This document shows, one piece after another, positions 1-32,119 of a stretch of 32,678 nucleotides of DNA; position 1 is the stretch's first letter; each line of letters begins with the position of its first letter. The stretch is from a virus: IMG/VR virus record IMGVR_UViG_3300009154_000160, positions 1 to 32,678 of that record, one strand, 5' to 3'. Under the pieces are notes generated by a model that ran no database searches, was not told the origin of the DNA, and worked only from the letters and a program-made list of their open reading frames with translations. Position numbers and translations under genes: made by a program.

Positions 1-882
1 ACTGGTGACAGTTTGCCTAGTGGACTGCTTTCGTCGGCTCAATCGACTACAAACGTGATTGGAACGACTACGCAGTATTCATCCAATCTAAGCCTTAATA
101 GCACAGCAGCTTTAAGCGTTGGAATGACAATCTCAGGACAGGGAATACCAGTTAATACGACGATTACAGCGATTGTAGACGCATACAACGTGACAATGAG
201 TAGCGCGGCAAATCTTACTGCCGTAAATTCTACTTACAGCTTCTCGTTCTACTATTACGTTGGATTCAATGGCGGATATGTTCAGCCAGCTAATCACAAC
301 ACCTTTAATGTCTACAATTCCTACAACAACGCTGTTGCCGGAACATCTACTGGCCTTGTTTCAATCTATTCTACTGGAGACGCCGTCCTAAGTAGTTTCT
401 TTGTTGATTCAATACTGCCTCCTACGCTTGTTAAGAGCATTCTGCACATTGAGAAGCCTGTAACTGTAGGATATGTCAGCTTGTATGCCTATGATTATGG
501 TCGCAGCAACGATATGGCACTTGTGGGTCAATATCACCCTTCTGAGACAAACCCTAAGTATCGCCGAATCAGGATCGGAAAGCCATGTGCATGGGTCAGG
601 ATCATCTATAGGATGGCACACCCAAACATCACTAGCGTATACGATTATATCCCAGTAGAGAACACTCGCGCAATTATGGCGGCAGTTCACGCTGTGGATC
701 TGGAGGATAAGGACTTCGAGGAGCAGAGCAATAAATATTGGGCAAAAGCACTCGCATATCTTCGCAACCAGCACGAAAGCATGACAGGACACGCTATGGA
801 GCCAATCCAAGTCAACGGATTGACCTACGGCGATATGACAGATCCTGTAATCGATTCTATCTACGGCGATATTGTTGGATAA
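1..882 (+). CDS. Putative phage neck/tail structural protein (5' end missing)
   Basis: The reading frame is open from base 1, so the true start lies to the left; about 293 residues are visible. The first part is Ser/Thr/Asn-rich and beta-like, with a short motif GMTISGQGIPVNTTITAI of a kind that recurs in phage structural proteins. The last third is different, charged and probably helical (around VENTRAIMAAVHAVDLEDKD), as in adaptor or tail-tubular proteins. It lies directly upstream of the nozzle-like gene, and the two overlap by one base (TAATG), so they are likely made together. A T7 gp11-like role is inferred from order and size; no diagnostic motif is visible. It could also be another head-tail connector or a tail protein. 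Confidence 0.6.
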   Translation, partial: TGDSLPSGLLSSAQSTTNVIGTTTQYSSNLSLNSTAALSVGMTISGQGIPVNTTITAIVDAYNVTMSSAANLTAVNSTYSFSFYYYVGFNGGYVQPANHNTFNVYNSYNNAVAGTSTGLVSIYSTGDAVLSSFFVDSILPPTLVKSILHIEKPVTVGYVSLYAYDYGRSNDMALVGQYHPSETNPKYRRIRIGKPCAWVRIIYRMAHPNITSVYDYIPVENTRAIMAAVHAVDLEDKDFEEQSNKYWAKALAYLRNQHESMTGHAMEPIQVNGLTYGDMTDPVIDSIYGDIVG

Positions 883-3020
883 TGAAAAGCCCCAATATCA
901 CTTCTGGCAGGCAAACTAAGTCTACGGCAGCGTGGATTCATGGAGTAAACTCGGTTCGCAACCCTTGGACGCTCCCAGAGGATCAATTCAAGTGGGGGGT
1001 GAACGTAAACTGCCGTGGAGGACTAGTCCAAACACGCAATGGGTTCAAGATGCGTCTTTCTTTGCCTAAAGGTAACTTTCAAGGAGGAATTATCTTTAAT
1101 GCAAATAAGCAGTATCAGAATTCCAGCACGGTCACCAATCTTTCTGGCGTTACTATTAGCAATGAGGCATCTGTGTTTGATGTGAACGGAAACCCTGTTG
1201 TGGCATCGGACATTCCATACGCAATGTTCTGCGTTGACGGGAAAGTTTATTATTCTCCATTTCCTTTGACTCAACCTGATAATTGGGACTCTTACTTACT
1301 TTCAAACATTCAGCTTGACCCAAACATCAAAAAGGTAAATTTCGTCATTGGGACTCAGAATGCAACTATTGACAACAATACCAATAGCACGGTTGTTCCA
1401 TCTCATAGAATCGTAATTATCCAAGATGGAATTAATCCGGCTGGATACTGGGATGGATCAGATAGGACAGGTCAGGTATCAGCCGATATGCCAATTGGTT
1501 ACTGGATGGCATTTTCTGGAAATAGGCTTTGGGTAGCAACAGGAAACATCATTGCAGCATCTGACTTAGCTAATCCGCTGGGATGGGCTGAACGAAATCA
1601 AGGTGCTGGGCGAGGAGACTTCAGTGTTGCAAGGCCAGTTACTGGAATGCGTGATTATGTAGGCCAAAACAACGATACAAAGCTGTATGTGTTTACCAAC
1701 CAATCAACATATTCACTTTCAAGCGGCGTTCTTGATCGCGCACAATGGCCTAATACTCCTAATTTCCAAGCTACTCTTTACCCTACAATTGGATGCGTTG
1801 CAGGTGACAGCATAGCGTTCCAAGCTGGCATGATGTGGTGGTATTCACAAGGAGGATTAGTCAGTGTTGACGTTGCAACCGCTTCATACCTATCTAGTCA
1901 GGTTTTATTCAAAGACATTGAGATGGCAAAGGCGAAACGCCTCATGGCATCAGATGTCAGCGGTATTTGCGCCGTTTCATTTGAGAACTATTTGCTTTAT
2001 TCAATCCCATACTTAGAGCCTACAAACAGCGTAACAATGGTTTTGGATTACGCATCTGCATCGGAGTGGAATCAGTCAAAGTCGCCTGCATGGAACGGTG
2101 TGTGGACAGGAATACGCCCCGTTGTGTGGTCAAGTAACGTCATTGATAGTCAGACTCGCGTATTTGCATTTTCGGTTGATTATGCCAGCACATCGGATGG
2201 ATCGTTTAACCATATCTGGGAGGCATTCATGCCAGAAAGATACGATACCTACCTTCAAATCAATCAAGGCGGAAGGACTGAGGAAAGAGTGAATAGGATT
2301 TACTGCCAAATGGAAACGGGTCTTCTAGGTGATGCGATGGACATGAAGCAGATGGTTTATGGCGAGCTTGATTGTTCACAGATAGCCGGAACGGTTGACG
2401 TTAAAGTGTCCTATAGGGGAACGAGGGGATCTTACTCAGACATACTCAATACTAGGCTTTTAGCAGCTACTGAAGGGTATCAATACGACACCAGCAACTA
2501 TTCCAAACAAATAGACCAACTGGGATTCTTGCAAACTCAATCACGCAGGCTTGTTACTGAAAATGTCTCTAGGTCAGGAGGGACATCTTGCGAATCAAAC
2601 TACACTTACGATGTGGACAAGGCATTTAGCTTCTTAACCGAATGGTGCGGAGCGATGGGGGTAGATTCGATACGAATGTTCTTAGATCCGTGGCCTGATA
2701 TTTCAGTTGGAAAGCCAAGCTATAACGAAACGCAATATTGCGTTGTTGCAGAGGATGGATCTAGTGAGTTGATTGACCTTAATCTTGCGCCAGTAGAAAA
2801 AGCTGCTACTGCATTAAATTCATGGTCTAGCACGCAGACTAGAACAGTCACATATCGCTGCTGCAATCCGGCTGTATCGGTTACGGCAACGGCATCATAC
2901 GTCAGTTACACATCCCTGCAAGACGCACAGACTCAGGCTGGAAATTTGGCTGCACAAGAGGCCCAAAACTCTATTAATAATTACAAAGTCGCAAACAACT
3001 GTCCCCCATGCCCTGCATAA
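882..3020 (+). CDS. Tail nozzle-like protein (T7 gp12/TTPB-like, putative)
   Basis: This is a 712-residue protein. I chose the ATG at 882 because it overlaps the previous stop (TAATG) and starts MKSPNITSGRQTKS; the frame is open further upstream but that part lies inside the preceding gene. It is rich in short beta-strand stretches with repeated W/Y-G patterns, for example GNRLWVATGNIIAASD and KLYVFTNQSTYSLSSG, as expected of the beta-propeller tail nozzle proteins of podoviruses. The C-terminus (about 660-712) turns Ala/Gln-rich with paired Cys (CCNP, CPPCPA) and may be a separate tip. The next gene overlaps by 13 bases. Size (T7 gp12 is about 794 aa) and order fit a nozzle. The assignment is inference from layout and composition, not from a catalytic signature. 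Confidence 0.6.
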   Translation: MKSPNITSGRQTKSTAAWIHGVNSVRNPWTLPEDQFKWGVNVNCRGGLVQTRNGFKMRLSLPKGNFQGGIIFNANKQYQNSSTVTNLSGVTISNEASVFDVNGNPVVASDIPYAMFCVDGKVYYSPFPLTQPDNWDSYLLSNIQLDPNIKKVNFVIGTQNATIDNNTNSTVVPSHRIVIIQDGINPAGYWDGSDRTGQVSADMPIGYWMAFSGNRLWVATGNIIAASDLANPLGWAERNQGAGRGDFSVARPVTGMRDYVGQNNDTKLYVFTNQSTYSLSSGVLDRAQWPNTPNFQATLYPTIGCVAGDSIAFQAGMMWWYSQGGLVSVDVATASYLSSQVLFKDIEMAKAKRLMASDVSGICAVSFENYLLYSIPYLEPTNSVTMVLDYASASEWNQSKSPAWNGVWTGIRPVVWSSNVIDSQTRVFAFSVDYASTSDGSFNHIWEAFMPERYDTYLQINQGGRTEERVNRIYCQMETGLLGDAMDMKQMVYGELDCSQIAGTVDVKVSYRGTRGSYSDILNTRLLAATEGYQYDTSNYSKQIDQLGFLQTQSRRLVTENVSRSGGTSCESNYTYDVDKAFSFLTEWCGAMGVDSIRMFLDPWPDISVGKPSYNETQYCVVAEDGSSELIDLNLAPVEKAATALNSWSSTQTRTVTYRCCNPAVSVTATASYVSYTSLQDAQTQAGNLAAQEAQNSINNYKVANNCPPCPA

Positions 3021-4716: not shown

Positions 4717-5247
4717 ATGGCTAACGAAGATTCCGCTCCTAGCTACTGGCAGAACCAGCTTAATAACTGGACAAAGACTAAAGGTCTTGAGAACTACCTT
4801 GGTTCCGGCTTGCAAGACAGCACAGTTGGACGCAGTGGTTTTTTTGATCAGGCAACGGCACAGGGGCAAGCTCTTCGTGAGGCTGGGGCAAGGCAGGCAC
4901 AAGGAATCATCGGTCAAGCCCCAGTAGTAGGCATTAATCCGTCTTCTGGAGCAGAACAGCTTCAGGGAGCCAGCGCACAGCAGGCAAAGCAAGGAGTTGC
5001 AGGAATCAATGCAGCAGTTCAAGGAGGACAAGGCCAAGCTCAATCAACTCAGGATTGGATTAATCAAATGATGGGATCTCAATCGCAAGCAGTAAACGCA
5101 CACAACCAAAACTGGCAGAATTATCAACAAGCCATGTACACAGGAGCAGTTAATAACGCTGCATCACAGAATGCTCAACAAGGTCAAATGTACCAAACGG
5201 GCGGTGCGGTTGCTGGAGCTGCGCTTGGAGCAGCAGTAATCATTTAA
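4717..5247 (+). CDS. Putative internal virion protein with hydrophobic C-terminus
   Basis: This is a 176-residue protein. I start it at ATG 4717 (MANEDSAPSYWQN), four bases after the previous stop, rather than at 4705 inside that gene. The middle is Gln/Ala/Gly-rich and low in charge, and the last 17 residues (GGAVAGAALGAAVII) form a Gly/Ala hydrophobic stretch that could enter a membrane. Small phage ejection proteins such as T7 gp14 share this size, composition and location. The PSYWQN segment repeats the end of the preceding protein. The stop overlaps the next start (TAATG). Confidence 0.55.
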   Translation: MANEDSAPSYWQNQLNNWTKTKGLENYLGSGLQDSTVGRSGFFDQATAQGQALREAGARQAQGIIGQAPVVGINPSSGAEQLQGASAQQAKQGVAGINAAVQGGQGQAQSTQDWINQMMGSQSQAVNAHNQNWQNYQQAMYTGAVNNAASQNAQQGQMYQTGGAVAGAALGAAVII

Positions 5248-6092
5248 TGAAAAACACATACACACAAACATTAATCACTCAAACAAAAGAAAAAGCAAAA
5301 CAATGGATAAATAGGTGGCCTAAATCGGCCGTCTTGTGGAGTGGAGGAAAAGACTCTACTGCATTGCTTCATTTTCTTAAATTTGAATGTGATATTGACC
5401 TCCCAGTAATTCAATTTAGGGAACCTTTGTTTCGTGAGCGTTATTCGTATAGCGACAAGCTAATAAAAGATTGGGATCTTGAAATGTATGAGTACCCGCC
5501 GTCAAAGGTAGCATTAGCTGATGGGCCTGATGCGAATACAGGTGAGATGCGCTTTGATCTATTGAAATATCAGCAATGGGGAGAAAGAAGCGTTGTTTTA
5601 TCTCTTGGAACAGAACGTCCTATTGGTGATGAAAAGTACCTTTGCGGAATAGATTTCCTAGGCCGTCCTACAGGCAGTTTTAATTGGCCTTGGCAGGGTG
5701 TATTCATCGGGACTAAGCAGTGCGATACCGATCTTATTAAGGGTCACGTTCCCATGTCTCAAGACATCAGATATGCGGAAGGATCTCCAATTAGTTTGTA
5801 TTTGATGCGTGATTGGGACGACGATCAAATATTTTCATGGCTTGTAGATAACGGAGTATGCCCAGATATGGACAGGTATGAATGCATTGATGGGAAATGG
5901 GGTCACAAAACTGACAAAAGCAAAAATGCAGACTATATCCCTACTTGTCTTAACTGTATTGACAGACACCAAGCTGGCAAACCAGCATACTGCCCAAAGC
6001 TAAAGGCAACCATTAGCAATATGTCTCATATGGCTCCTTATGAGGACGTTGTTTTTGAAGATCTTGGATTTAGGCCAATCTGGAACAAATAA
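5247..6092 (+). CDS. PP-loop PAPS-reductase-like (adenine nucleotide alpha-hydrolase) enzyme
   Basis: This 281-residue protein carries the classic PP-loop SGGKDST at residues 32-38, after a 30-residue helical lead-in, so it belongs to the PAPS reductase/ATP-pyrophosphatase superfamily. Family members bind an adenine nucleotide and act in sulfur or amide transfer. A Cys cluster (C205, C213, C234, C237, C249; CLNC...YC) near the C-terminus could bind Zn or an Fe-S cluster, as in some sulfur-handling relatives. It starts by TAATG overlap with a virion gene and ends by overlap with the YkgJ-type gene, so the two look co-translated. Such genes are known in many phages and their substrates are mostly unknown. 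DNA sulfur modification or nucleotide/tRNA modification are possibilities; no dnd-type partners are visible. Confidence 0.85.
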   Translation: MKNTYTQTLITQTKEKAKQWINRWPKSAVLWSGGKDSTALLHFLKFECDIDLPVIQFREPLFRERYSYSDKLIKDWDLEMYEYPPSKVALADGPDANTGEMRFDLLKYQQWGERSVVLSLGTERPIGDEKYLCGIDFLGRPTGSFNWPWQGVFIGTKQCDTDLIKGHVPMSQDIRYAEGSPISLYLMRDWDDDQIFSWLVDNGVCPDMDRYECIDGKWGHKTDKSKNADYIPTCLNCIDRHQAGKPAYCPKLKATISNMSHMAPYEDVVFEDLGFRPIWNK

Positions 6093-6373
6093 TGTACGAT
6101 TGCCAATCTTGTGGTGCTTGTTGCTCTCACAGGTGGTCATGGCCTTTACTTAAAAAAGATAGGTCAGACGCTAAGAATATACCAAAGGAGCTTGTTCGTG
6201 AAGATTACCCATTAATGAAAACTATAAATAATAGGTGCGTTGCATTAAGTGGGGAAATAGGGTGCAATGTTTCGTGCAACATATACAACGACAGGCCATC
6301 AGCTTGCCAAAAGTTTGAATCTGGATCTGATCTCTGTAAAGAGGCTAGAGCAAACGCTGGTTTAAAAGTATAA
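6092..6373 (+). CDS. YkgJ-family cysteine-cluster protein
   Basis: This 93-residue protein has nine cysteines in the YkgJ/UPF0153 pattern: CxxCxxCC at residues 4-11, then RCVAL around 48-52, C58, C62 in SCNIYNDRPSAC, C72 and C82. The family is thought to bind Zn or an Fe-S cluster, and its reaction is not established. Its ATG overlaps the stop of the PP-loop enzyme, which suggests a two-gene functional unit placed inside the virion operon. A 43-base gap follows before the next gene; I see no clear promoter or terminator in it. Confidence 0.85.
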   Translation: MYDCQSCGACCSHRWSWPLLKKDRSDAKNIPKELVREDYPLMKTINNRCVALSGEIGCNVSCNIYNDRPSACQKFESGSDLCKEARANAGLKV

Positions 6374-9838: not shown

Positions 9839-12800
9839 ATGGCTGACAGCAATGACCCTCAATCTTTAGAGAGCAGGCTAAATGCCGTAGCAGCCCCGAA
9901 GGATCAGCCTCAAGTTGATGTAATCAAACAAAAACTGAACGAAGTAGCTGCACCTGCAAATGAAAATCATTTGTCGGAAAGGCTAAATGCCGTTGCTGCC
10001 CCTGTGGATAAGGCTGCTCAAGAGCAAATATCTAATGATCAGATTCAATCAGCAGCATTTGGAGTTGGAGGCAGTATTGCGCTTCCATATATTCACGAAT
10101 CATTACAAAAGAATGGGCCTAAAAATGTAACAGAAGAGCAAAGGTCAGCAATTGCATCAATCAATCCAGAGCAAAGGCATGGTCTATTAAAGCAACATCC
10201 TTGGGTCTACAACAGCATGACCCCACAGCAGCAAGATGAAGATTTTGAATTTTCTAGGAAAGCGCAGCCATTCACGATGAAAGACGCTGGTGAGGCGGCT
10301 AGTGGGTTAGGTAATTTCTTCAAGGACATGGTAAGCAAGGGTGCTGAAGTTTCATGGGATGTTGTTGCGGCTAATCTAACAGAGCCATTAAAAGCAAGAA
10401 TTGAGAACATTCCACATAACGACAGGGTTAAGTTGGCAGAAGAAAAACTTGCGAGAGATTCAGTAAATTTGGGAGGTTCTATTCCGTCTGGTATTATTGA
10501 TACCACACGCACTATACAACGCTTGTTTGGTGGCGAAGATCTTAATGCACTTGTTAACCCAATACAGCGTGCAATTCAGCAAGCTGCCCCAGTAATAGGA
10601 CAACAATTAGGAATACCTATTGGAGTTACCCAGAACATTGTAGGAGTTCCACAGCAGCAACAGATTAATCCTTGGTCAGCAGTTCCTTCTACTGGATATG
10701 CGCCTTTTGATTTAGTAACAAGATTGGCTGAAGCGTCATATAGTAAAGACGCTGGCAGTTTTGCAGCTTTGGATAGGTTCAATGAGGCGGCAGGACTTCA
10801 GGACAAAGATCAATCAAAGACGCACGACCACATCAGAAAAGTGTACAATGCTATTGAGGGAGAAAAAGACTGGAATGCATCAGTCGGTCAAAACCAAGTA
10901 TCTCCTTGGGCAAAGATGGCATTCTCTGATGCTGGTCATCAGGCTATTTTGTTTAGGGAGAAATCAATGCTTCCTAGCGCACAATTTATTGCAGACCACG
11001 ATGGAATCAGCTTGCAGGAAGCAGACGCAAAGCGAGACAGGCTGGCTGAAGAAAATGCTACCAAGGCAACCATCCAACTGGCGAGCGAGTGGAATAAAAA
11101 CTACGATCCAGCAATGGAAATGTTCGGAGGTCTTCTTTTGGGAGACGCAGGAATGGGAGAGGCCGGACTTGCTATGGGCGCACTGAAAGAAAGCGGAAGC
11201 CTAATGAAAGTCGCACAGACGCTTGGTAAGACTGACCGAGAAGTTTCTGCATACTACACGGCATTGCAAAAATCTCGCAAAGCAAGAGATCTTGAGATGC
11301 AGGCAAAGGCTTCTCGTATGCCTTGGTGGGGTAAGGCCGCTGGTGGAGTTGAGCAAGTTCAAAAAAACATATCAGCCGCTGGTCAGGGAGTGTTTGAAAA
11401 TCTTCCTCCTTGGGGAAAGACTGTTGCACCGCTTGCATCAAAGGTCGCGGCAAAAGTAGGTCTTGGAGGTCTTGGAGGTGGTGTTGGCGCATTGCTTGAT
11501 CCAGAAAATCCAACCAAAGGTCTATTGGAGGGAGTTACGTTCGCAACGGCACTAGGGATTGCTCCATCAGTCATTAGGTCTATTGGAGAGGCCAAGAAAA
11601 CAATTGGAGCAGGAGAGGGTAAATTATTTACTGAGGTTGCCAAAAGCCCAACATCATCTCTTCCTGCAAGAGTTATCTTCAACAAGGCAACTGGCCCAAC
11701 AATTGACTATTTGATAGAGAACGGAACTACTTTAGCTAAGGCAGGAGTCAATCTTGGTGCGCTGTCTGCTGTCACATCAACTTTGAATTCTGATGACCCA
11801 GAGGACTTCAATAAGGCAGTAGCCGAAGGAATTGGAATGGGAGTTGGTTTCCATTTATTGCATGGAGCAGCCGGACAGATTCACGGAAAAGATCCAGCTC
11901 AGGAGCTAAAAAACCGCAAAAAGCGTGATGCAGAAATAAATATTGCCGTCAGCAAGGCAAGCCCAGCAACTCAAGGAGTTCTTGAGCAAGTCACAAATTA
12001 TCAGACCGCAATCGACAGGGTTGATCACTTGGTAGGAAAGAGCCAAAACAATTTAGCAAGGGCAATACAAGGAGGAGACAAGAAAGCTATAGATGAGGCT
12101 TCCAAAGCATTGAAGAATGCACAAGCAATCCAGAAAGAGGTTCTTAGGGCAAACGTCCAAACAAGAAACGAGTATGGAAGGTCGTTCCTGTCTACATACG
12201 CCGACATGAACAGGCTTGCTAATGGATCTCGTAGCGTTGGACAGCCAAACGTGAGCATAGAGATCTTAACTCCAGATCAGATTGCAGACCTTCATGTCAG
12301 TGAGAATTCTAGGGTTGGAATGACACCAGAAGAGATCGCTGCTGTTAGGGCGCAGGGAGAGGCAGATGCACAGGCTCGCGGATTCTTTGATAAGTCTAAG
12401 AATAGGGCAGTAATTAACGCCGCACACATTTTGGCTAGGACAACCCTATTTGGAGAATCGCCATCGGACGCTCTTAGGCACGAAACATCTCATGCTCTTG
12501 AGCAGATCCCAGAATTTAAGAAATTTAACGAAAAAACCGACAATCTGCTATTTACCAATACTGAAAGAGATTTGCAGGGCAATATACTCAAGCAAACAGA
12601 TGGAATCTACGACGACAACGCATTGGTTGAGATGTACATCAAGAAATATCTTGGGAGTACGCCGGATAGCAAAAAGATTGAGTTCTCCAGCAGGCTTGGA
12701 TTGTGGAATCCAGAAACCAATAGTCTAAATATCCCAGAGGTTGTCAAATATATGAAGAGCGAGGTAACGGCTGAATTGACATCTGGAAACCTTCGTTCTG

Positions 12801-15800
12801 GACTTGGAAAGTTAATGGGTGCTGAAGCCGGAGTTGCGAACTGGATCGCAATGCGTCAAAAGCAGGGGTTCTTAGGTAAAGCAATAAACGCCGTAACTGG
12901 CCTTGGCGCAAAGCCGTTTGGTTCTGAGCTTCTTGGTATTGAATACACCCCAGAAGTCATTGCAGCCAATCGTGAGGCTATTAAAGCACTAGCTGAGTTC
13001 AATGGCAGGTTTGAGCTTAACCCAGAGGGACAATTGGGTCGCGAGATGACCGAAAAGGAGATCAGGACAAACCCAGTTCTTAGGAAAAGGTATGGGCTGA
13101 CTGGGGGAGAATTCCAGACGCAACTTCAAGGAGTTATTCGTGATGAGAATGGAAAGATAGTTGGAAAACCTGTAGTTATCACCAACCCAAACGCTTCAGA
13201 GGGCAATTGGAAATATGACGATCAAGGAAATAGAAAGCAGGTAAAGGGATACGGACAAGTTCCAGATGAATTCCAAGGAGTTCCTATTCCAGCAGGAGGA
13301 TCGCTAGAAGTATACCGCGACTTCAAATATGAGCCAGACGGAAAGACTCCGATCCGCACAAGTAACAAGGATTTAAACCAACTTGAGGCAGATCGCGGAG
13401 ATCTAATCCGCAAAGCTCTTACAGAGGCTGCTTACGACGACTCCACAAGCCGCCTGACTCCGTTTTCTGCTGATGGGCTGTCATGGGACGGCATCATGTC
13501 AAAATCGCAGATACAGGCAATTAAAGACATTCCTGAGTCCATTCTCCCACTTTCTATTAAAGAAAAGATATTAGCATTTAATGATGCAATGGCTCGCGGG
13601 GAAGGAAGCACGTTCGACATAGATTATGCACCTCGTAGCGGAAGAGGTAAGGCGTACAAGGGGCGCAAATCAAACATATATCACATGATACCAATCGGCT
13701 TTGGGTTCTCTAAGGCTGGCAACTTTTATTTACGCACTCTTTCACTTAATGCTGCCTTCAGGAAGCTCAACGCTAGAGCGAAGTTGATGAAGGGTTGGCT
13801 TGACCCTTGGGATGGAGATAAGAATTTATTCATGAAAGAGCTTCAAGACACATACTTGAAGAACACTTATGAAAAGCGCGATGGATGGATCGGACTTGAT
13901 CCTAATCATCCAGCCGAGAAAACCCCATTGGCGGAAGTCAAGTTTGGAAGGTTTTTGGACTTCATGAACATGATCGGGTCTGACACTCCCATCAATCCAC
14001 AGCGTTCTGTAACTCCGGCAGATCCATCTGCTAGGAAATCAAAGAGGTCTAATCTGTCGGCAGAAGAGGACAACGCAGGGATCGATAATTTATGGCGCAG
14101 CCACAGGCTTGACGCTATAGCCGACATTGCAGATACAACGGAGCAGACGGGCGCATATAAGATGGATCTAAACAGGGTTTACAAGGCTCTCATGCCAAAG
14201 CCAGAGGAAGGCGAGGAAGCCATAAAGCCTCTAACTTTTGCACCAAAGGGAGAGCGGCCTGCTCTAACGCCGGAGATTCTTAAAGGAATTACGGCTACGC
14301 ACATTGCCCCAAAGAAAGAAAACGGCATATCCTTCATGCCATCCGACGAAAAATATCCCACCAGCGAGCGTGGATTCTACTCAGGCTTGCAAAAGACCAT
14401 CGATGAGAAGATGCCAGCAAAGGCATCGCCACAGCAGATTCTGTCCATCGTCAACAACCCGCAGAACGCCAAACCTGAAGAGGTCAAGTGGAGTAACCTT
14501 GCAGGATTTGTGGAAGGCAAAACCAGCGTCACCAAGCAAGAGGTTCTAGACTACTTACGCAACGAGGGATCGGTGAAGTTTGAGGAGGTAAGTCTAAAAA
14601 AAGGTGGAGGACAGGATCTAAAAATACAAATTCAAGAAAATCTTGATGCGCAAAGAAAGTATTTTGAAGATGCTTTTGCTAAATATGGTGTAAGTAACAT
14701 AAGAGATTTACCAAATGAAGTAAGGTTTAGTGATGAAAGAAAACGATTAGAAGAAGAGGGGCAAAGACTTTCTGTTGAAAGAACTAATCAATCTGGAAGA
14801 ATTATACAGGAACCAAAATACTCCCAATATGTCCTTCCTAATGGCGAGAACTACAGGGAGGTCGTGCTGACGATGCCTGTTGAGCAAAAGCCAATACCAA
14901 CAACAGACATTAATGTTATCTCTCAAGAAATGTATGGAAGAAAGTATTCTGAACTTTCTCCAGAAGAAGGCGATAAAGTTTGGTCAGAATATAAAAACAG
15001 ATCAGTAGTTAAGGATGCACAAGTAAATCCTTATGCTTATCGTTCCTCCCATTTCCCAGACATCCCCAACTATGTTGCCCACATGAGAGTTGATGAGCGT
15101 CCTGATGCTGAAGGCAATGATGGCTTGTTCATCGAAGAGATCCAGTCTGATAGGCATCAGCAGGGTAGGGAGAAGGGGTATAGGGGAAACAAAGATGAAG
15201 AAATTGCAGCAAACCTAGCCAAGCAAAAGGAAAATGTTGCCAAAATGGAAGTTTTGGAAAAGCAACTTACTGAAAAATATGGAGAGGATAGGAATGCTTG
15301 GGATAAATCCGTATATCCTCGTGATGAATTGTGGCATGAGTGGAAAAAACTCCATGAGATAAATAAGTTGCTTGCTTCAGAAAAAGCAAATCTAGTTGAT
15401 GGATTAATCCCAGACGCACCATTCCGCAAAGACTGGCCTGTCCAGATGTTCAAACGAGCGTTGCGTGATGCAGTCGAAAGCGGCAAGGAGTGGATTGGAT
15501 GGACGGGTGGTGAGACGCAGGCAGAACGCTATGACTTGAGTAAGCAGGTTTCATCACTTCATTACGACGAGAAAGACAACTCGCTTATCGCTTATGGCAT
15601 GGATGGAGAGCAGGTGATCGGGAAAACCGTCCAAACCTCTGAATTGCCAGACATGATTGGCAAAGATGCCGCCCAAAAATTACTAAGCCAAGCCCCCAAC
15701 GGTGACGGTGAAAAGATACTTTCGGGTCAAGACCTAAAAGTAGGCGGAGAAGGCATGAAAGGCTTCTACGATAACATCCTTCCTAAAGAGATTGGCAAGT

Positions 15801-18079
15801 ATGTCAAAAAATGGGGTGCAAAAGTGGAGGAAGGAGAGGTAGATAATCGTCAACCCGAAGACAACGCTTATTACGAGGAACCGAAGCCAGAGCATTTTAC
15901 CCCAATCTGGAAAGTACAAATCACCCCAGAAATGCGCTCCAGCATCAAAGAAGGAGGTCAGATCGCATTCATGCCATCCCGTGAGGAAGAGCCTGAGCGC
16001 ATAAAAGAAGCTACCTACACCAATCCTCGCTCTGGCGAGGTATCTCGCGGGGCTACCCACCTTATTGCCAATCCTAACGCGCCACAGGAGGCTACAGACC
16101 GCGAATCTCCTGCATATGGCTTTGAGACTGATAAAGGACGCATTGTCGACAGGAACGAGGCGTACAGCATTGCACAAACCGCTGGGCAGCTAAAGGAACC
16201 TACTAATAAGGAGGAGAGGTTCCACGCTGATCGCGGAGTATTGCACAGCGGGATGTATGAGCCGAACCGCATCTCCTTCTTGCCTTCGTCCAAGATGGAC
16301 GAGGCATACGAGGCCGCAGTTAGGGCAGGCGACGAAACCGAGCAACGCAGGTTAGTTGATGAGGCCGCAAAAGAGGCTGGGTACACGGTTAAGGCGTATC
16401 ACGGCACAAATAAAAACTTTCGTGTATTTAAGGCGCAGTTTGGTAATGCCATTTGGTTCTCTGAAAATCGTAAAGATATTGAAAGTGGTGAGTCAGGTGC
16501 GGCGAGCACCAAGAAAATCATGCCTGTTTATCTGAACACGGGCAGGGAGGCGGGACGAGATGAATACGAAAGGCTAACAGAAGGTCAACTCATGCGGGAT
16601 TATGACAGTGTAAACTTAGAGGGAACTCGCATTGTGTTCGATCCATCACGCATAAAAAGTTACGACGAGATCACAAAATCTAAAGGCAAGCTAATCCCTC
16701 TCTCCCAACGCTTCGATACCAGCAAGCCGGACATCAGGTTTATGCCAGCTGACGAACTTCCCAAGACCGAAGACGGCAAGGTCGATTGGGAGAGCTTCAA
16801 GACCAAGGGCATGGAGATCGCCAAGCCGCTGGCTGCACTTGCTCCAATTGGAGGCATTAGCTTCATGCCTGCTCAAGACATCGAAATGAAGCCCTCAGAC
16901 GATGGAAGGACGATTGTCTACCAGCACGACAAGAAGACCACCATTAAACCGCCTGTAAAGTCGGTTAAAACGCTAAAGAATGAGATTGTCGGTATGCTTG
17001 AGGCAGATCGCCACAATACTTTAGGCGACAATATGGGAGGGCCGATGCACCCATTCCTTCTTTCCAACCAAGCAATAGCAAAACTGAAAGATGGTCGTGG
17101 ATTTAAGCCTGTATGGGCCAACATGAATTCTGCATTCGTGACTCGCGCCAAGAACATCATTAAGAACACAACCTCTGGTCGCGCCTTAATCCAGCTCATG
17201 AAAGAAGAGGCTCACATCAGCAATAGAAAGTTTGTACGCGATGTGATGTCAGAACTGGATAAGAAAAAAGATGCTATGCCAAAGCAAATCGTGGATTCCC
17301 TCCATGTCATCCTTGAGCTTGGCGCACGAAATCCTGCCACAAAACTAAAGGAAGTAACTAAAGCTAAAAAAGCATTTAAGGATGGAGAAATTACACAACG
17401 CGAACTTAATAAAGTCCTAAAAGACAATAAGGAAGCAATTGATAAGTATGGCCCTATGGTTGATTTCCTATCCAAGCTAGGGTCAATCAAATCAAAAGCC
17501 ACAAGGGGCAATATTGAGTCTTTCAATAAATCGTATGCTGATCACATCAAACAATACCAAAAGCAGGACTGGTATAAGAAGATCGCCGATAAATACAAAA
17601 ACACCGCTTTTGCTGACGAAGCAGCTCGTTTCACATTTAACCAGCGTGGTGCAGCCATGAAACGACTTCGCGGTATTGCTCATGCGCCAGACATTGGCAA
17701 GATGCTTGCAGATTCAATGGATTTCAAGGGCGGAAAGAACCTTGACCTTGTTGCTAGTGTGCAACTCTCTAAAGATCCCGATGCGTTTGCCATCTACACA
17801 GGTAATGATCCAAAGCAAGAAACAAAAATGAGCCAAAATGAGAGGTATCTGCGTGATCAGTTCCTAAAAAACAAGAACTTCAGAAAGCATCCTTCTTATG
17901 ACTGGATGATGCTTGGCCCTGAAAAGGCAGATAACTTCATCCTTGAAAAGCCAGTCGATCCCCTTGTATTATTCCCAGACTATGCCAAAAGTCATCCAAA
18001 TGCTAATGTAAGAAACGGAAGCAAGGAAACTATTGTCGGCACAATGAAGAAATCAAAAATACCTCTAAAAATAAAATAA
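9839..18079 (+). CDS. Giant polyvalent virion protein with metallopeptidase-like and ADP-ribosyltransferase domains
   Basis: This 2746-residue protein is the largest gene here. An N-terminal triplicated motif RLNAVAAP/KLNEVAAP sits at residues 13-20, 32-39 and 48-55. A zincin-type HETSH lies at 881-885, with a candidate third ligand in DDNALVEMY about 50 residues on. A phage 'large polyvalent protein' module spans about 1503-2046 (HFPDIPNYVAHMRV at 1738; LFIEEIQSDRHQQGREKGY; ETQAERYDLSKQV near 1890). An ART-like domain lies at about 2150-2298 (YHGT 2187-2190, WFS 2206-2208, FDPSRIKS). A conserved helical tail ends it. Five I-x-F-[M/L]-P-[S/A] motifs at 1497, 2042, 2145, 2299 and 2340 fall at module borders. 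Published polyvalent proteins are thought to enter the cell with phage DNA; here the gp16-like position supports ejection. Confidence 0.85.
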   Translation: MADSNDPQSLESRLNAVAAPKDQPQVDVIKQKLNEVAAPANENHLSERLNAVAAPVDKAAQEQISNDQIQSAAFGVGGSIALPYIHESLQKNGPKNVTEEQRSAIASINPEQRHGLLKQHPWVYNSMTPQQQDEDFEFSRKAQPFTMKDAGEAASGLGNFFKDMVSKGAEVSWDVVAANLTEPLKARIENIPHNDRVKLAEEKLARDSVNLGGSIPSGIIDTTRTIQRLFGGEDLNALVNPIQRAIQQAAPVIGQQLGIPIGVTQNIVGVPQQQQINPWSAVPSTGYAPFDLVTRLAEASYSKDAGSFAALDRFNEAAGLQDKDQSKTHDHIRKVYNAIEGEKDWNASVGQNQVSPWAKMAFSDAGHQAILFREKSMLPSAQFIADHDGISLQEADAKRDRLAEENATKATIQLASEWNKNYDPAMEMFGGLLLGDAGMGEAGLAMGALKESGSLMKVAQTLGKTDREVSAYYTALQKSRKARDLEMQAKASRMPWWGKAAGGVEQVQKNISAAGQGVFENLPPWGKTVAPLASKVAAKVGLGGLGGGVGALLDPENPTKGLLEGVTFATALGIAPSVIRSIGEAKKTIGAGEGKLFTEVAKSPTSSLPARVIFNKATGPTIDYLIENGTTLAKAGVNLGALSAVTSTLNSDDPEDFNKAVAEGIGMGVGFHLLHGAAGQIHGKDPAQELKNRKKRDAEINIAVSKASPATQGVLEQVTNYQTAIDRVDHLVGKSQNNLARAIQGGDKKAIDEASKALKNAQAIQKEVLRANVQTRNEYGRSFLSTYADMNRLANGSRSVGQPNVSIEILTPDQIADLHVSENSRVGMTPEEIAAVRAQGEADAQARGFFDKSKNRAVINAAHILARTTLFGESPSDALRHETSHALEQIPEFKKFNEKTDNLLFTNTERDLQGNILKQTDGIYDDNALVEMYIKKYLGSTPDSKKIEFSSRLGLWNPETNSLNIPEVVKYMKSEVTAELTSGNLRSGLGKLMGAEAGVANWIAMRQKQGFLGKAINAVTGLGAKPFGSELLGIEYTPEVIAANREAIKALAEFNGRFELNPEGQLGREMTEKEIRTNPVLRKRYGLTGGEFQTQLQGVIRDENGKIVGKPVVITNPNASEGNWKYDDQGNRKQVKGYGQVPDEFQGVPIPAGGSLEVYRDFKYEPDGKTPIRTSNKDLNQLEADRGDLIRKALTEAAYDDSTSRLTPFSADGLSWDGIMSKSQIQAIKDIPESILPLSIKEKILAFNDAMARGEGSTFDIDYAPRSGRGKAYKGRKSNIYHMIPIGFGFSKAGNFYLRTLSLNAAFRKLNARAKLMKGWLDPWDGDKNLFMKELQDTYLKNTYEKRDGWIGLDPNHPAEKTPLAEVKFGRFLDFMNMIGSDTPINPQRSVTPADPSARKSKRSNLSAEEDNAGIDNLWRSHRLDAIADIADTTEQTGAYKMDLNRVYKALMPKPEEGEEAIKPLTFAPKGERPALTPEILKGITATHIAPKKENGISFMPSDEKYPTSERGFYSGLQKTIDEKMPAKASPQQILSIVNNPQNAKPEEVKWSNLAGFVEGKTSVTKQEVLDYLRNEGSVKFEEVSLKKGGGQDLKIQIQENLDAQRKYFEDAFAKYGVSNIRDLPNEVRFSDERKRLEEEGQRLSVERTNQSGRIIQEPKYSQYVLPNGENYREVVLTMPVEQKPIPTTDINVISQEMYGRKYSELSPEEGDKVWSEYKNRSVVKDAQVNPYAYRSSHFPDIPNYVAHMRVDERPDAEGNDGLFIEEIQSDRHQQGREKGYRGNKDEEIAANLAKQKENVAKMEVLEKQLTEKYGEDRNAWDKSVYPRDELWHEWKKLHEINKLLASEKANLVDGLIPDAPFRKDWPVQMFKRALRDAVESGKEWIGWTGGETQAERYDLSKQVSSLHYDEKDNSLIAYGMDGEQVIGKTVQTSELPDMIGKDAAQKLLSQAPNGDGEKILSGQDLKVGGEGMKGFYDNILPKEIGKYVKKWGAKVEEGEVDNRQPEDNAYYEEPKPEHFTPIWKVQITPEMRSSIKEGGQIAFMPSREEEPERIKEATYTNPRSGEVSRGATHLIANPNAPQEATDRESPAYGFETDKGRIVDRNEAYSIAQTAGQLKEPTNKEERFHADRGVLHSGMYEPNRISFLPSSKMDEAYEAAVRAGDETEQRRLVDEAAKEAGYTVKAYHGTNKNFRVFKAQFGNAIWFSENRKDIESGESGAASTKKIMPVYLNTGREAGRDEYERLTEGQLMRDYDSVNLEGTRIVFDPSRIKSYDEITKSKGKLIPLSQRFDTSKPDIRFMPADELPKTEDGKVDWESFKTKGMEIAKPLAALAPIGGISFMPAQDIEMKPSDDGRTIVYQHDKKTTIKPPVKSVKTLKNEIVGMLEADRHNTLGDNMGGPMHPFLLSNQAIAKLKDGRGFKPVWANMNSAFVTRAKNIIKNTTSGRALIQLMKEEAHISNRKFVRDVMSELDKKKDAMPKQIVDSLHVILELGARNPATKLKEVTKAKKAFKDGEITQRELNKVLKDNKEAIDKYGPMVDFLSKLGSIKSKATRGNIESFNKSYADHIKQYQKQDWYKKIADKYKNTAFADEAARFTFNQRGAAMKRLRGIAHAPDIGKMLADSMDFKGGKNLDLVASVQLSKDPDAFAIYTGNDPKQETKMSQNERYLRDQFLKNKNFRKHPSYDWMMLGPEKADNFILEKPVDPLVLFPDYAKSHPNANVRNGSKETIVGTMKKSKIPLKIK
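12479..12493 (+). other. HExxH zinc-protease-like site in the polyvalent protein
   Basis: Codons for residues 881-885 read H-E-T-S-H in the context ALRHETSHALEQIPEF, the usual spacing for a zincin catalytic helix. A Glu in NALVEMY, about 50 residues later, is a candidate third zinc ligand. Metallopeptidase domains are known components of phage polyvalent proteins; whether this one cuts the same polypeptide or a host protein cannot be read from the sequence. Confidence 0.65.
14345..15976 (+). other. Large polyvalent-protein module between two FMPS motifs
   Basis: This encodes residues about 1503-2046, bounded by ISFMPS and IAFMPS. I recognise the conserved blocks TSERGFYSGLQ, SNLAGFVEGK, HFPDIPNYVAHMRVDERPDA, LFIEEIQSDRHQQGREKGY, APFRKDWPVQMFKRALRDA, GWTGGETQAERYDLSKQV and MKGFYDNILPKEIGKYVKKW as a module seen in many giant phage and prophage proteins, with no settled function. 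Between the conserved blocks are AT-richer charged stretches (about 14587-14819, 14884-15043 and 15176-15405) that look like insertions. Confidence 0.65.
16283..16750 (+). other. ADP-ribosyltransferase-like domain of the polyvalent protein
   Basis: This encodes residues about 2149-2304. YHGT at 2187-2190, WFS at 2206-2208 and IVFDPSRIKSYDEI followed by FDTSKPDIRFMPA follow the order of the ART domain often found in phage polyvalent and MuF proteins, which transfers ADP-ribose from NAD+ to a target. The flanking I-x-F-[M/L]-P-[S/A] motifs at 2145 and 2299 neatly enclose it. Target and activity are unknown. The catalytic Glu/Asp cannot be fixed by eye. Confidence 0.65.
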
Positions 18080-19759: not shown

Positions 19760-20425
19760 ATGGATGAATTAAGGAAACTCAAGCGAGGAACCGTTAGAGA
19801 TGACGGCCTTGTGTTTTTGCGTTATCGCAAAAGCTGTAAAAATGGCGAATATTGGATTACTCCAGATAAATTTATAGAATACAATAATCGTCAAAAAGAA
19901 AGCGGAGATGCGTGGAGAAAAAGGAATCCAGAAAAAAGCAAAGAATGTTGTAGAGCATCGTATCAAAAGAATAGACAGAAAAAGCTAGATTATCACAGAA
20001 ATAGAAGGGCAAAGAATCCAGAGATATATCAGGCTAGGCAAAATGCATATCGACAAGCGAATCGTGAAGCAGAGCGAGCAAGGGCAAACGCTAGAAGAAA
20101 AAAAGATCCAGAGAAATATAGGAAGAGAATAAGGGAATATCACAAAACCCATCCTGAAAAAAGATGTGCATTAGAAGCAAAACGAAGGGCTAAAACAGAA
20201 GGAACTCTTTGCAATCTCAACAAAGAACAAAAGAAAATTATAGAATGCTTGTATAAATGCCGAAAAAGGGTTTCAGAATGTACTGGTATAGAGCATCATG
20301 TAGATCATATTATCCCGCTTTCAAGGGGAGGATTGCATACCCCAGAAAACCTTCAAGTGATACTTGCCTCAATAAACATGAGCAAGTCCGACAAACTCCC
20401 TCATGAATTTTCCATTGCCGCATGA
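19760..20425 (+). CDS. HNH endonuclease (homing-type, free-standing)
   Basis: This is a 221-residue protein. Residues 45-145 are a long Lys/Arg-rich stretch with repeating N-P-E-x-Y/K-P-E units (RRAKNPEIYQARQ; RRKKDPEKYRKR), probably a DNA-contacting helical arm. The C-terminal nuclease core shows H180, D182-H183 (HHVDHIIPLSRGG), N197 and N206-x-x-K209, the HNH beta-beta-alpha-metal signature. The gene is more A/T-rich than its neighbours, as expected of a mobile homing endonuclease. Its TGA overlaps the ATG of a 19-aa ORF. It could nick an allele lacking the gene and spread to related phages; no intron or intein edge is visible. Confidence 0.85.
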   Translation: MDELRKLKRGTVRDDGLVFLRYRKSCKNGEYWITPDKFIEYNNRQKESGDAWRKRNPEKSKECCRASYQKNRQKKLDYHRNRRAKNPEIYQARQNAYRQANREAERARANARRKKDPEKYRKRIREYHKTHPEKRCALEAKRRAKTEGTLCNLNKEQKKIIECLYKCRKRVSECTGIEHHVDHIIPLSRGGLHTPENLQVILASINMSKSDKLPHEFSIAA

Positions 20426-28444: not shown

Positions 28445-28675
28445 ATGACAAAGACAAACAAAAAAGAACTTTTGGAAAATCTAAGAAGTCGTCTATTTGA
28501 TAAATATGAAATCGAAATGGTAAATATTTACAAAACCATGAGGGAAGATGATTTCACGAAAGAACTTTTGGCAATGGGCATAATCACTCCTGAAGAATGG
28601 GTAGATACAATGGATGATGCTTTTTCTAATCTTTGGGAGTTCATTTCAACACATACAGACACATATGACATCTGA
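28445..28675 (+). CDS. Unknown small acidic helical protein
   Basis: This 76-residue protein starts at ATG 28445 (MTKTNKKELLENLRSRLFDK); the frame opens earlier only from a TTG. It is acidic at the C-terminal half (TPEEWVDTMDDAFSNLWEFI). It is the last gene of the AT-rich insert and overlaps the nuclease start by 11 bases. No family recognised. Confidence 0.5.
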   Translation: MTKTNKKELLENLRSRLFDKYEIEMVNIYKTMREDDFTKELLAMGIITPEEWVDTMDDAFSNLWEFISTHTDTYDI

Positions 28676-29732
28676 CGAACGCGAAAACAAAATGTCCGGC
28701 AGTGCAATGGCGACATACGCCGACTGCGCCGGAAAGTTCCAACTAGAAATCACTTGCCCTCCTAGCGAGGGCGGGGCAGCGGCAGACATGGGTACTCGCA
28801 TCCATGCCTACCTTGCCGGAGAGAAGATCACCCTAAACGACGAGGAGCAGTCAATCGCTGATCGTTGTCAGGAAGAGTACGCAGAGATCCTTGAGACGCT
28901 TAATTTCGGAGAGCCGGATCATGTCACCATTGAGAAACGCCTATGGTACGGAGACATCTGGTCAGGCCAGATCGATCTGATCCTGCACTGGGGAGACAGG
29001 GTTCTGATCGTCGATTGGAAAACTGGCAGAGTCGGGACAGGGAACTCAGCCGCCGATAATATCCAACTCCGCGCCTATGCGGTTCTTGTCCGCAAGAATC
29101 TGAACATTAAGGAGGCATATGTCGCCATCGTACAGCCAATGGCGCAAAAGTACACAATTGCCCATTATGATGAGAATGACCTGATCGACGCTGAAAAGCA
29201 GATACAGGGCATCGTGGAGGCCGCAATGCATCCTGAAGCACAAAGGACACCAAGCGCATCGGCCTGTAAGTATTGCCGAGCCAAGGCTATCTGCCCAGAA
29301 GTCGGAGGAGTCGCATCAGAGCTGGCAGTATTTACACCAGCGCAGGTTCCGGCACTCAGCAACGAGGCAATAGCTGATTTCTTGGATAAATCCGATGTGG
29401 TTGAAGCGTTTATCGAAGCGATTCGCGACGAGGCCAAGACGAGACTCCTAAAGGGCGAGGAAATCGCAGGACGCAAACTGGCATCAGGCCGTACCAGCCG
29501 GAGCGTTGAAGACCCAGTAGAAGCATTTAAAGCCCTTGAACAGTACTTGACACCTAACGAGTTCACTTCTGCTTGCAAGGTTTCGATTCCGCAACTAGAA
29601 AAGATTTTTGCCACAGCCAATGACATGAAACCCGCAGAGGCGAAGGCCGCTCTTGGTAAATTGTTGGAGGATGTGCTAGTGACGAAGACTGGATCTGCCA
29701 TGATGGTACGATGCAAGAAAGAGGATAAGTAA
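28665..29732 (+). CDS. PD-(D/E)XK nuclease with Cys cluster (DUF2800/Cas4-like)
   Basis: This is a 355-residue protein from ATG 28665 (MTSDERENKMSGSAMATYAD); ATG 28692 (MSGSAMATYAD) is a second choice. D104 in SGQIDLILHW, D117-W-K119 in VLIVDWKTGR and Q134 in NIQLRAYAVL form the PD-(D/E)XK core. C21, C201, C204 and C210 (ACKYCRAKAIC) match the four-cysteine iron-sulfur layout of Cas4/AddB-like and DUF2800 nucleases. The GEEIAGRKLASGRTSR C-terminal part also fits DUF2800. It likely resects DNA ends for ERF, upstream. Its codon use returns to that of the core phage genes. Confidence 0.8.
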   Translation: MTSDERENKMSGSAMATYADCAGKFQLEITCPPSEGGAAADMGTRIHAYLAGEKITLNDEEQSIADRCQEEYAEILETLNFGEPDHVTIEKRLWYGDIWSGQIDLILHWGDRVLIVDWKTGRVGTGNSAADNIQLRAYAVLVRKNLNIKEAYVAIVQPMAQKYTIAHYDENDLIDAEKQIQGIVEAAMHPEAQRTPSASACKYCRAKAICPEVGGVASELAVFTPAQVPALSNEAIADFLDKSDVVEAFIEAIRDEAKTRLLKGEEIAGRKLASGRTSRSVEDPVEAFKALEQYLTPNEFTSACKVSIPQLEKIFATANDMKPAEAKAALGKLLEDVLVTKTGSAMMVRCKKEDK

Positions 29733-31683: not shown

Positions 31684-31770
31684 ATGAAAAACAATTTAAG
31701 CCTCAGTTTTCTTGCGAGCCGATTCATTGCGGCAATTTTCACCGTAGGAAGACTGGGGCTTGTTTGTTAA
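31684..31770 (+). CDS. 28-aa ORF in structured leader (doubtful)
   Basis: ATG 31684 to TAA 31768-31770 encodes MKNNLSLSFLASRFIAAIFT then VGRLGLVC, a partly hydrophobic peptide. The same bases form a long hairpin, so the coding reading may be incidental. Weak. Confidence 0.25.
   Translation: MKNNLSLSFLASRFIAAIFTVGRLGLVC
31701..31764 (+). other. Long-stem structured leader upstream of HNH
   Basis: AAGCCTCAGT pairs with ACTGGGGCTT (10 pairs, one G-U). An inner GCCG...CGGC stem is enclosed, and TGTTTGTT follows. It may be a terminator, an attenuator, or a structured RNA linked to the HNH gene. Not matched to a known RNA family by eye. Confidence 0.4.
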
Positions 31771-31774
31771 TACA

Positions 31775-32119
31775 ATGAAAAGAAAAATTATACCATCAAA
31801 GGTAAAAAAAATGATATGGTCAAAGTCTTGCGTAATATGCGGTCTATCTGGATTAACTCAAGTAGATCACATTATTCCAATAGCCAATGGAGGAATGGAT
31901 GATATAGAAAATCTTCAGCCACTCTGCAAGCAATGTAATAACAAAAAAAATTGTCACAAATCTAATGATGATTTGCTTGATTGCTATTTAGAAAACAGAG
32001 AAGCACATATAAGAAAACACGCATGGTATCTTTCAATGGTAAATAGAAATCATTGGGATGGGCCTGTAAAAGCAGTACACGATTTATTTTTGACTCGTTC
32101 TATGAAAGAGGCTTTTTAA
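31775..32119 (+). CDS. Small HNH endonuclease
   Basis: This 114-residue protein starts at ATG 31775. It has C19-x-x-C22, D31-H32 in VDHIIPIANGG, N46, and C51-x-x-C54 with N56, the zinc-finger HNH layout (two CxxC pairs around DH...N...N). The gene is A/T-rich compared with the DUF1376 gene next door, as expected of mobile nucleases. The C-terminal half (after about residue 70) is helical and may hold DNA contacts. It might also serve in packaging, but no terminase is near. Confidence 0.85.
   Translation: MKRKIIPSKVKKMIWSKSCVICGLSGLTQVDHIIPIANGGMDDIENLQPLCKQCNNKKNCHKSNDDLLDCYLENREAHIRKHAWYLSMVNRNHWDGPVKAVHDLFLTRSMKEAF

Follow-up and report, generated by a model that had tools for sequence, protein, structure and literature searches.

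Protein-specific letters at the module seams of giant polyvalent phage proteins

Introduction

Among the relatives of a giant polyvalent phage protein, the seams between modules carry a short motif in which a hydrophobic-x-[FY] core is constant and the next two to four residues vary between proteins but recur at the seams within one. The starting point was a virus record of 32,678 bases (hereafter the window), for which a first-pass annotation had noted five copies of I-x-F-[M/L]-P-[S/A] in a single large protein and proposed that they might be processing sites. That observation is one instance of a broader pattern across relatives. The best explanation, to which we give about an even chance, is that the motif would be a proteolytic processing site of a modular, injected polyprotein.

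The question of whether separate effectors are cut from polyvalent proteins goes back to at least 2017. It becomes directly testable with a seam signature that is legible from sequence, which predicts exact fragments. The signature also marks domain borders in giant proteins that are otherwise unannotatable, and for a given phage backbone it predicts the module borders at which cutting would occur.

A giant gene with five copies of a short motif

The features of the giant gene and its modules are as follows.

9839–18079, + strand: ORF of the giant polyvalent protein, 2746 aa, the largest gene of the window
11642–14323, + strand: conserved backbone module with the zincin-like region, residues ~602–1495; alignable with relatives across most of its extent, at 24–47% identity
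12221–13018, + strand: predicted zincin-like metallopeptidase, residues 795–1060, from alignment and an AF2 model
12479–12493, + strand: HExxH, residue 881, the sole HExxH in the giant protein
14327–14344, + strand: seam copy 1, ISFMPS, residue 1497
14345–15961, + strand: LPD-like domain, residues 1503–2041, tail ITPEMR..GGQIAFMP; homologues in ~40 viral loci
15962–15979, + strand: seam copy 2, IAFMPS, residue 2042; pLDDT <50
15980–16270, + strand: small alpha/beta module, residues 2048–2144, also present in locus L005
16271–16288, + strand: seam copy 3, ISFLPS, residue 2145; mostly pLDDT <50
16289–16732, + strand: helical hairpin and ADP-ribosyltransferase (ART)-like domain, residues 2151–2298, from PF18760 and structural matches
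16733–16750, + strand: seam copy 4, IRFMPA (ART tail), residue 2299; low-confidence region
16856–16873, + strand: seam copy 5, ISFMPA, residue 2340; pLDDT <50
16874–18076, + strand: C-terminal module of no known family, residues 2346–2746; no match in a PHROG search

By analogy with the polyvalent-protein literature, the 2746-residue product is probably a virion protein that is ejected into the host. In the gene order of the window its gene sits 3′ of tail and virion genes, and the product of 738–3020 has a weak match to a PHROG internal virion protein (E 1.3e-4). A pattern search for I.F[ML]P[SA] recovers exactly five copies in the giant protein, all at the residues first reported, where composition predicts 0.004; in 5000 shuffles of the protein 17 had one copy and none had more than one, which rules out a chance origin. 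A looser pattern run over all six frames of the window gave a sole extra match, at 2240, behind a stop in a frame that holds no gene. The codons differ among the five copies. The ATG within FMP raised the idea of an internal start codon, which was rejected because the other seam types lack an ATG there.

The placement of the copies at module borders was also borne out. Copy 1 closes the block that bears the zincin-like region, and copy 2 closes the LPD-like domain, whose homologies stop there. Copies 3 and 4 flank the ART-like domain, as had been proposed: Pfam ART-PolyVal (PF18760) matches residues 2180–2244 with E 8.7e-6, and the structural comparison against the PDB returns PARP/ART folds in all 50 of the 50 best rows, at Z scores of only 4.8–5.6. 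Because the Pfam score of 27 bits is below the curated cutoff of 31.2, the domain is termed ART-like and is not filed as a member of that family. The structural match ends ~23 residues before copy 4. In an AF2 model of residues 2036–2352, copies 2, 3 and 5 lie within stretches of pLDDT <50, and copy 4 straddles the fall from the ordered ART region to a pLDDT of ~53, its last residues being below 50.

Relatives carry their own seam letters

Scans of viral contigs and prokaryote genomes yielded more than 200 loci with relatives (numbered with the prefix L). In close relatives FMP recurs at their own module borders. More distant relatives retain the hydrophobic-x-[FY] core with different letters behind it, and the types met overall include FMP, FLP, FSP, FDD, FSI, FRK and FAKAR. 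Individual proteins may use one type many times: FDD occurs nine times in L009, FMP eight times in L055, FLP or YLP seven times in L095, and FSI or YSI, FRK and FAK six times each in L123, L131 (Bacteroidales) and L215, respectively; L122 repeats FAL and L071 repeats FLP. The seams bracket enzymes, namely GNAT, ART and kinase domains in L095, PRTase and cytosine methylase in L055, and ART and RadC in L131, as assigned by Pfam with some of the bracketed domains below curated cutoffs. The literal motif first described is real in the window protein, but I-x-F-[M/L]-P-[S/A] is only one clade's version of it. A relative at L103:4781-12505, whose backbone is 47% identical to that of the window protein, has the seams YMPREV and YQPREV: seam letters shift quickly yet largely together. 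The comparison of the two zincins, 47% identical, pairs MPA in the window with QPR in L103. Likewise, L119 and L188 have close zincins but the letters SVR and SKK.

The recurrence of type was quantified in 41 dereplicated proteins by reading the seam type at the ART tail and counting its copies elsewhere in the same protein. Outside ART tails there were 71 own-type copies, as against 17.6 when types were permuted (maximum 41 in 20,000 permutations); with FMP proteins removed, 45 were found and 8.6 expected. A second comparison made no use of a motif search. In 17 dereplicated proteins carrying both domains, the LPD and ART tails were set by homology, and they share the first letter after the aromatic (+1) in 16 of the 17 (4.7 expected, maximum 11 of 2000), although the effective number is below 17 because some of the proteins are interrelated (e.g., L077, L091 and L187). 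Agreement over +1 and +2 together was 11.5 against 3.7 expected and at +3 it was 8 against 2.5; the aromatic itself gave no excess. Shared ancestry of duplicated ART tails is therefore rejected as the sole cause, since the matching holds with ART tails left out and in the LPD/ART comparison. Same-type copies also agree in letters beyond the search pattern (0.35 vs. 0.18 at +3 and 0.16 vs. 0.08 at +4), and the excess is gone from +5 on, where copies agree as often between proteins as within one. That it stops at this position argues against linker composition as the cause.

Of 98 copies outside ART tails, 58 fall on borders defined by homology (28.5±4.2 expected). Giant proteins hold 124 own-type copies in 110 kaa, compared with 9 in 92 kaa of other ORFs. 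Among the ORFs of the loci examined, the motif is not above background in other virion proteins; the record lacks the window's portal and capsid genes, and the motif may be a head-wide site that extends beyond the giant protein.

The seam array is not universal. The cultured phages Skulduggery, Parlo and ZX1 encode giant HExxH proteins without one, and the L123 region has no relative among phage records, so that these checks found no cultured phage with a confirmed array. An NCBIfam search of three giant proteins gave nothing useful. Loci L014–L022 encode stand-alone LPD proteins in ORFs of ~660 aa, which end in GQPLF and a hydrophobic tail (e.g., AIPAIGAGLLGAGMMQEE) with no seam or next module.

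The zincin-like region and the source of the letters

A protease-like HExxH had been pointed out in the same polypeptide, and the single example at residue 881 lies in a region that resembles zincins. An alignment of 14 relatives shows both histidines, the glutamate and a downstream glutamate to be invariant, with HExxxH in three members; the candidate third ligand is the glutamate of YMKSE. The AF2 model of residues 795–1060 (pLDDT 77.6, pTM 0.75) has structural matches that include the zincins lethal factor, PprI, YbeY-like proteins, neprilysin, ECE-1 and BlaR1, all of them weak (Z <5) and interspersed with fumarases and other proteins. An HExxH stands in cis in each of the 29 complete viral proteins of the ART-tail set (6% by chance) but in only 12 of the 22 complete prophage proteins; three prophage contigs (L133, L138 and L139) encode complete polyvalent proteins with clear matching seams and no HExxH in cis. 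In L138 a small HExxH ORF lies just upstream of the polyvalent gene (locus 5395). Seam copies are found downstream of HExxH in 101 of 111 cases, where a uniform distribution would give 80.

It is the zincin-bearing N-terminal backbone, and not the ART domain, that the letters directly after the ART domain go with. A Mantel test ties seam type at that position to how alike the zincin modules are (r 0.285, P 0.0005, the lowest value that 2000 permutations allow), although that module often lies a thousand residues off; with likeness of the neighbouring ART domain there is no correlation (r −0.004, P 0.53). Since type tracks the backbone module, cargo appears to take on the letters of its host backbone. 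The letters cannot be pinned on the zincin itself, because flanking segments predict them at least as well (r 0.286 for postZ and 0.237 for preZ vs. 0.189 for the zincin core) and the backbones are mostly of one clade. The graded Mantel test separated zincin from ART where a nearest-neighbour test of exact type did not (12/49 vs. 13/53).

What the seams may be

Each cargo domain ends in a hydrophobic-x-aromatic sequence and then two to four residues that one protein repeats at most of its seams. If the motif is a processing site, [IV]-x-[FY] would be the constant half of the cleavage site and the next residues its variable half. Cutting, either within the head or once the protein has been ejected, would release individual effectors such as ART, LPD, kinase, GNAT and methylase. 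By a further step of reasoning, the cutter is probably the zincin-like metallopeptidase of the same polypeptide, which lies upstream of most seams. The case for processing sites is stronger than it was from the window alone, in that the letters are protein-specific and common to the seams of unrelated domains, the seams bracket enzymes, and an HExxH is present in cis in all complete viral proteins of the set. Against it stand the failure to single out the zincin as the reader of the letters, the evidence for some copying at the DNA level, the close zincins that go with unlike letters, the prophage proteins that have seams and no HExxH in cis, and the three cultured phages whose giant proteins have no array. 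A wider version, plausible but less likely than not, is that many polyvalent phage proteins are polyproteins with a private code, in which the self-encoded zincin and its cognate seams would co-evolve, incoming cargo would be re-tailed with the code of the recipient, and the chain would be cut into independent effectors before or after ejection.

The most serious competitor, with roughly one chance in four of being correct, holds that the seams are recombination sites: modules would be inserted or duplicated at a short linker whose letters are common through descent from copied DNA, with no reader. Modules have evidently been shuffled, type differs between close relatives and tracks the backbone as a whole, and codon identity is above expectation. 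Synonymous codons at matching residues of same-type copies agree at 0.51 (0.40 expected) and those of LPD and ART tails at 0.69 (0.43 expected); some of the seam matching therefore comes from copied DNA, and seams have probably undergone a degree of copying or recombination. The whole pattern is not readily explained in this way. About a third to half of the codons have diverged, yet +1 matches in 16/17, or 94%, with a third of the codons changed in that comparison, and the matching starts abruptly after the aromatic. It ends at +4, unlike a block of copied DNA, and FMP or FLP is kept at many seams across backbones that are only ~25–45% identical.

The protein-specific recurrent letters in flexible linkers of one protein would equally be produced by a docking or packaging motif, to which a virion protein or a chaperone would bind so as to load or thread the giant protein in its unfolded state. 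This is rather unlikely, as a position between domains and around single enzymes exceeds what docking needs and the giant head protein DarB of P1 has its targeting signal in the N-terminal 30 residues (PMC9024508). In favour of cutting of the ejected protein at the seams by a protease of the infected bacterium, examples from Bacteroidales tend to R at +1 (RK, RE and RL) and those from Clostridia to S; however, types vary widely within Clostridia (AT, SE, DE, SV, DS, SL, SY and SM) and within Verrucomicrobiota (MP, SV, SS and SI), host labels from MAGs being uncertain, and we regard a host protease as improbable. Least probable of all is that the motif simply forms the final strand of each domain and does nothing else. 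The aromatic core is indeed part of the LPD and ART tails by homology, but the motifs fall in low-confidence stretches of the model and the protein-specific letters common to unrelated domains would be left unexplained.

Relation to known systems

Processing sites of the kind proposed have a familiar counterpart in viral polyproteins that are cut by their own protease, in which recurrent sites separate the functional domains and the protease is part of the chain it cuts. Here too the domains are separated by recurrent sites specific to the virus; the present protein differs in being tailed-phage cargo rather than a replication polyprotein. Among phages a close likeness is to the polyvalent proteins (Iyer et al., 2017; PMC5512222), giant multidomain proteins with a zincin-like MPTase and ART and LPD-type domains; the window protein combines zincin-like (HExxH with a downstream Glu ligand in the 14 relatives), LPD-like and ART-like regions in one ORF. 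In the text of that paper examined, MPTase autoprocessing was proposed from domain content, the word 'linker' is absent and no border motif is described. What is new here is thus the seam code, an addition to those proteins, and not the processing idea itself, which dates from 2017. Among the papers that could be searched, none was found to mention a seam motif or code.

The same text records precedents in both directions. DdrB of P1 carries an MPTase and is reported to be processed before packaging, whereas the virion RNAP of N4 enters the particle uncut although it too has an MPTase, which counts against the processing reading (PMC5512222). DdrB and DarB of the P1 Dar system resemble the present protein as large head-packaged proteins. 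In the giant phages SPN3US and phiKZ, ejected head proteins are processed at A-X-E or S/A/G-X-E (PMC5694885); as with the seams, this is a short recurring motif, and its specificity changes from one related phage to another. The cutting in those phages is done after Glu, in several proteins, by a prohead protease that is a separate protein, whereas the present motif occurs in a single protein, lacks Glu at the site and has its candidate protease in cis.

Other features of the window

Near the N-terminus of the giant protein (window 9875–10012, residues ~13–55) lie three near-repeats of [RK]LN[AE]VAAP, possibly a head-targeting signal by analogy with the N-terminal signal of DarB. Amid the virion genes, 5247–6373 holds a gene resembling PAPS reductases (PHROG 424, E 2e-4) and, after it, one for a small cysteine-cluster protein. 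An exonuclease is encoded at 28614–29732 (PHROG 69, E 3e-44), and two ORFs, at 19760–20425 and 31760–32119, are HNH endonuclease-like by eye (HVDHIIPLSRGG and QVDHIIPIANGG).
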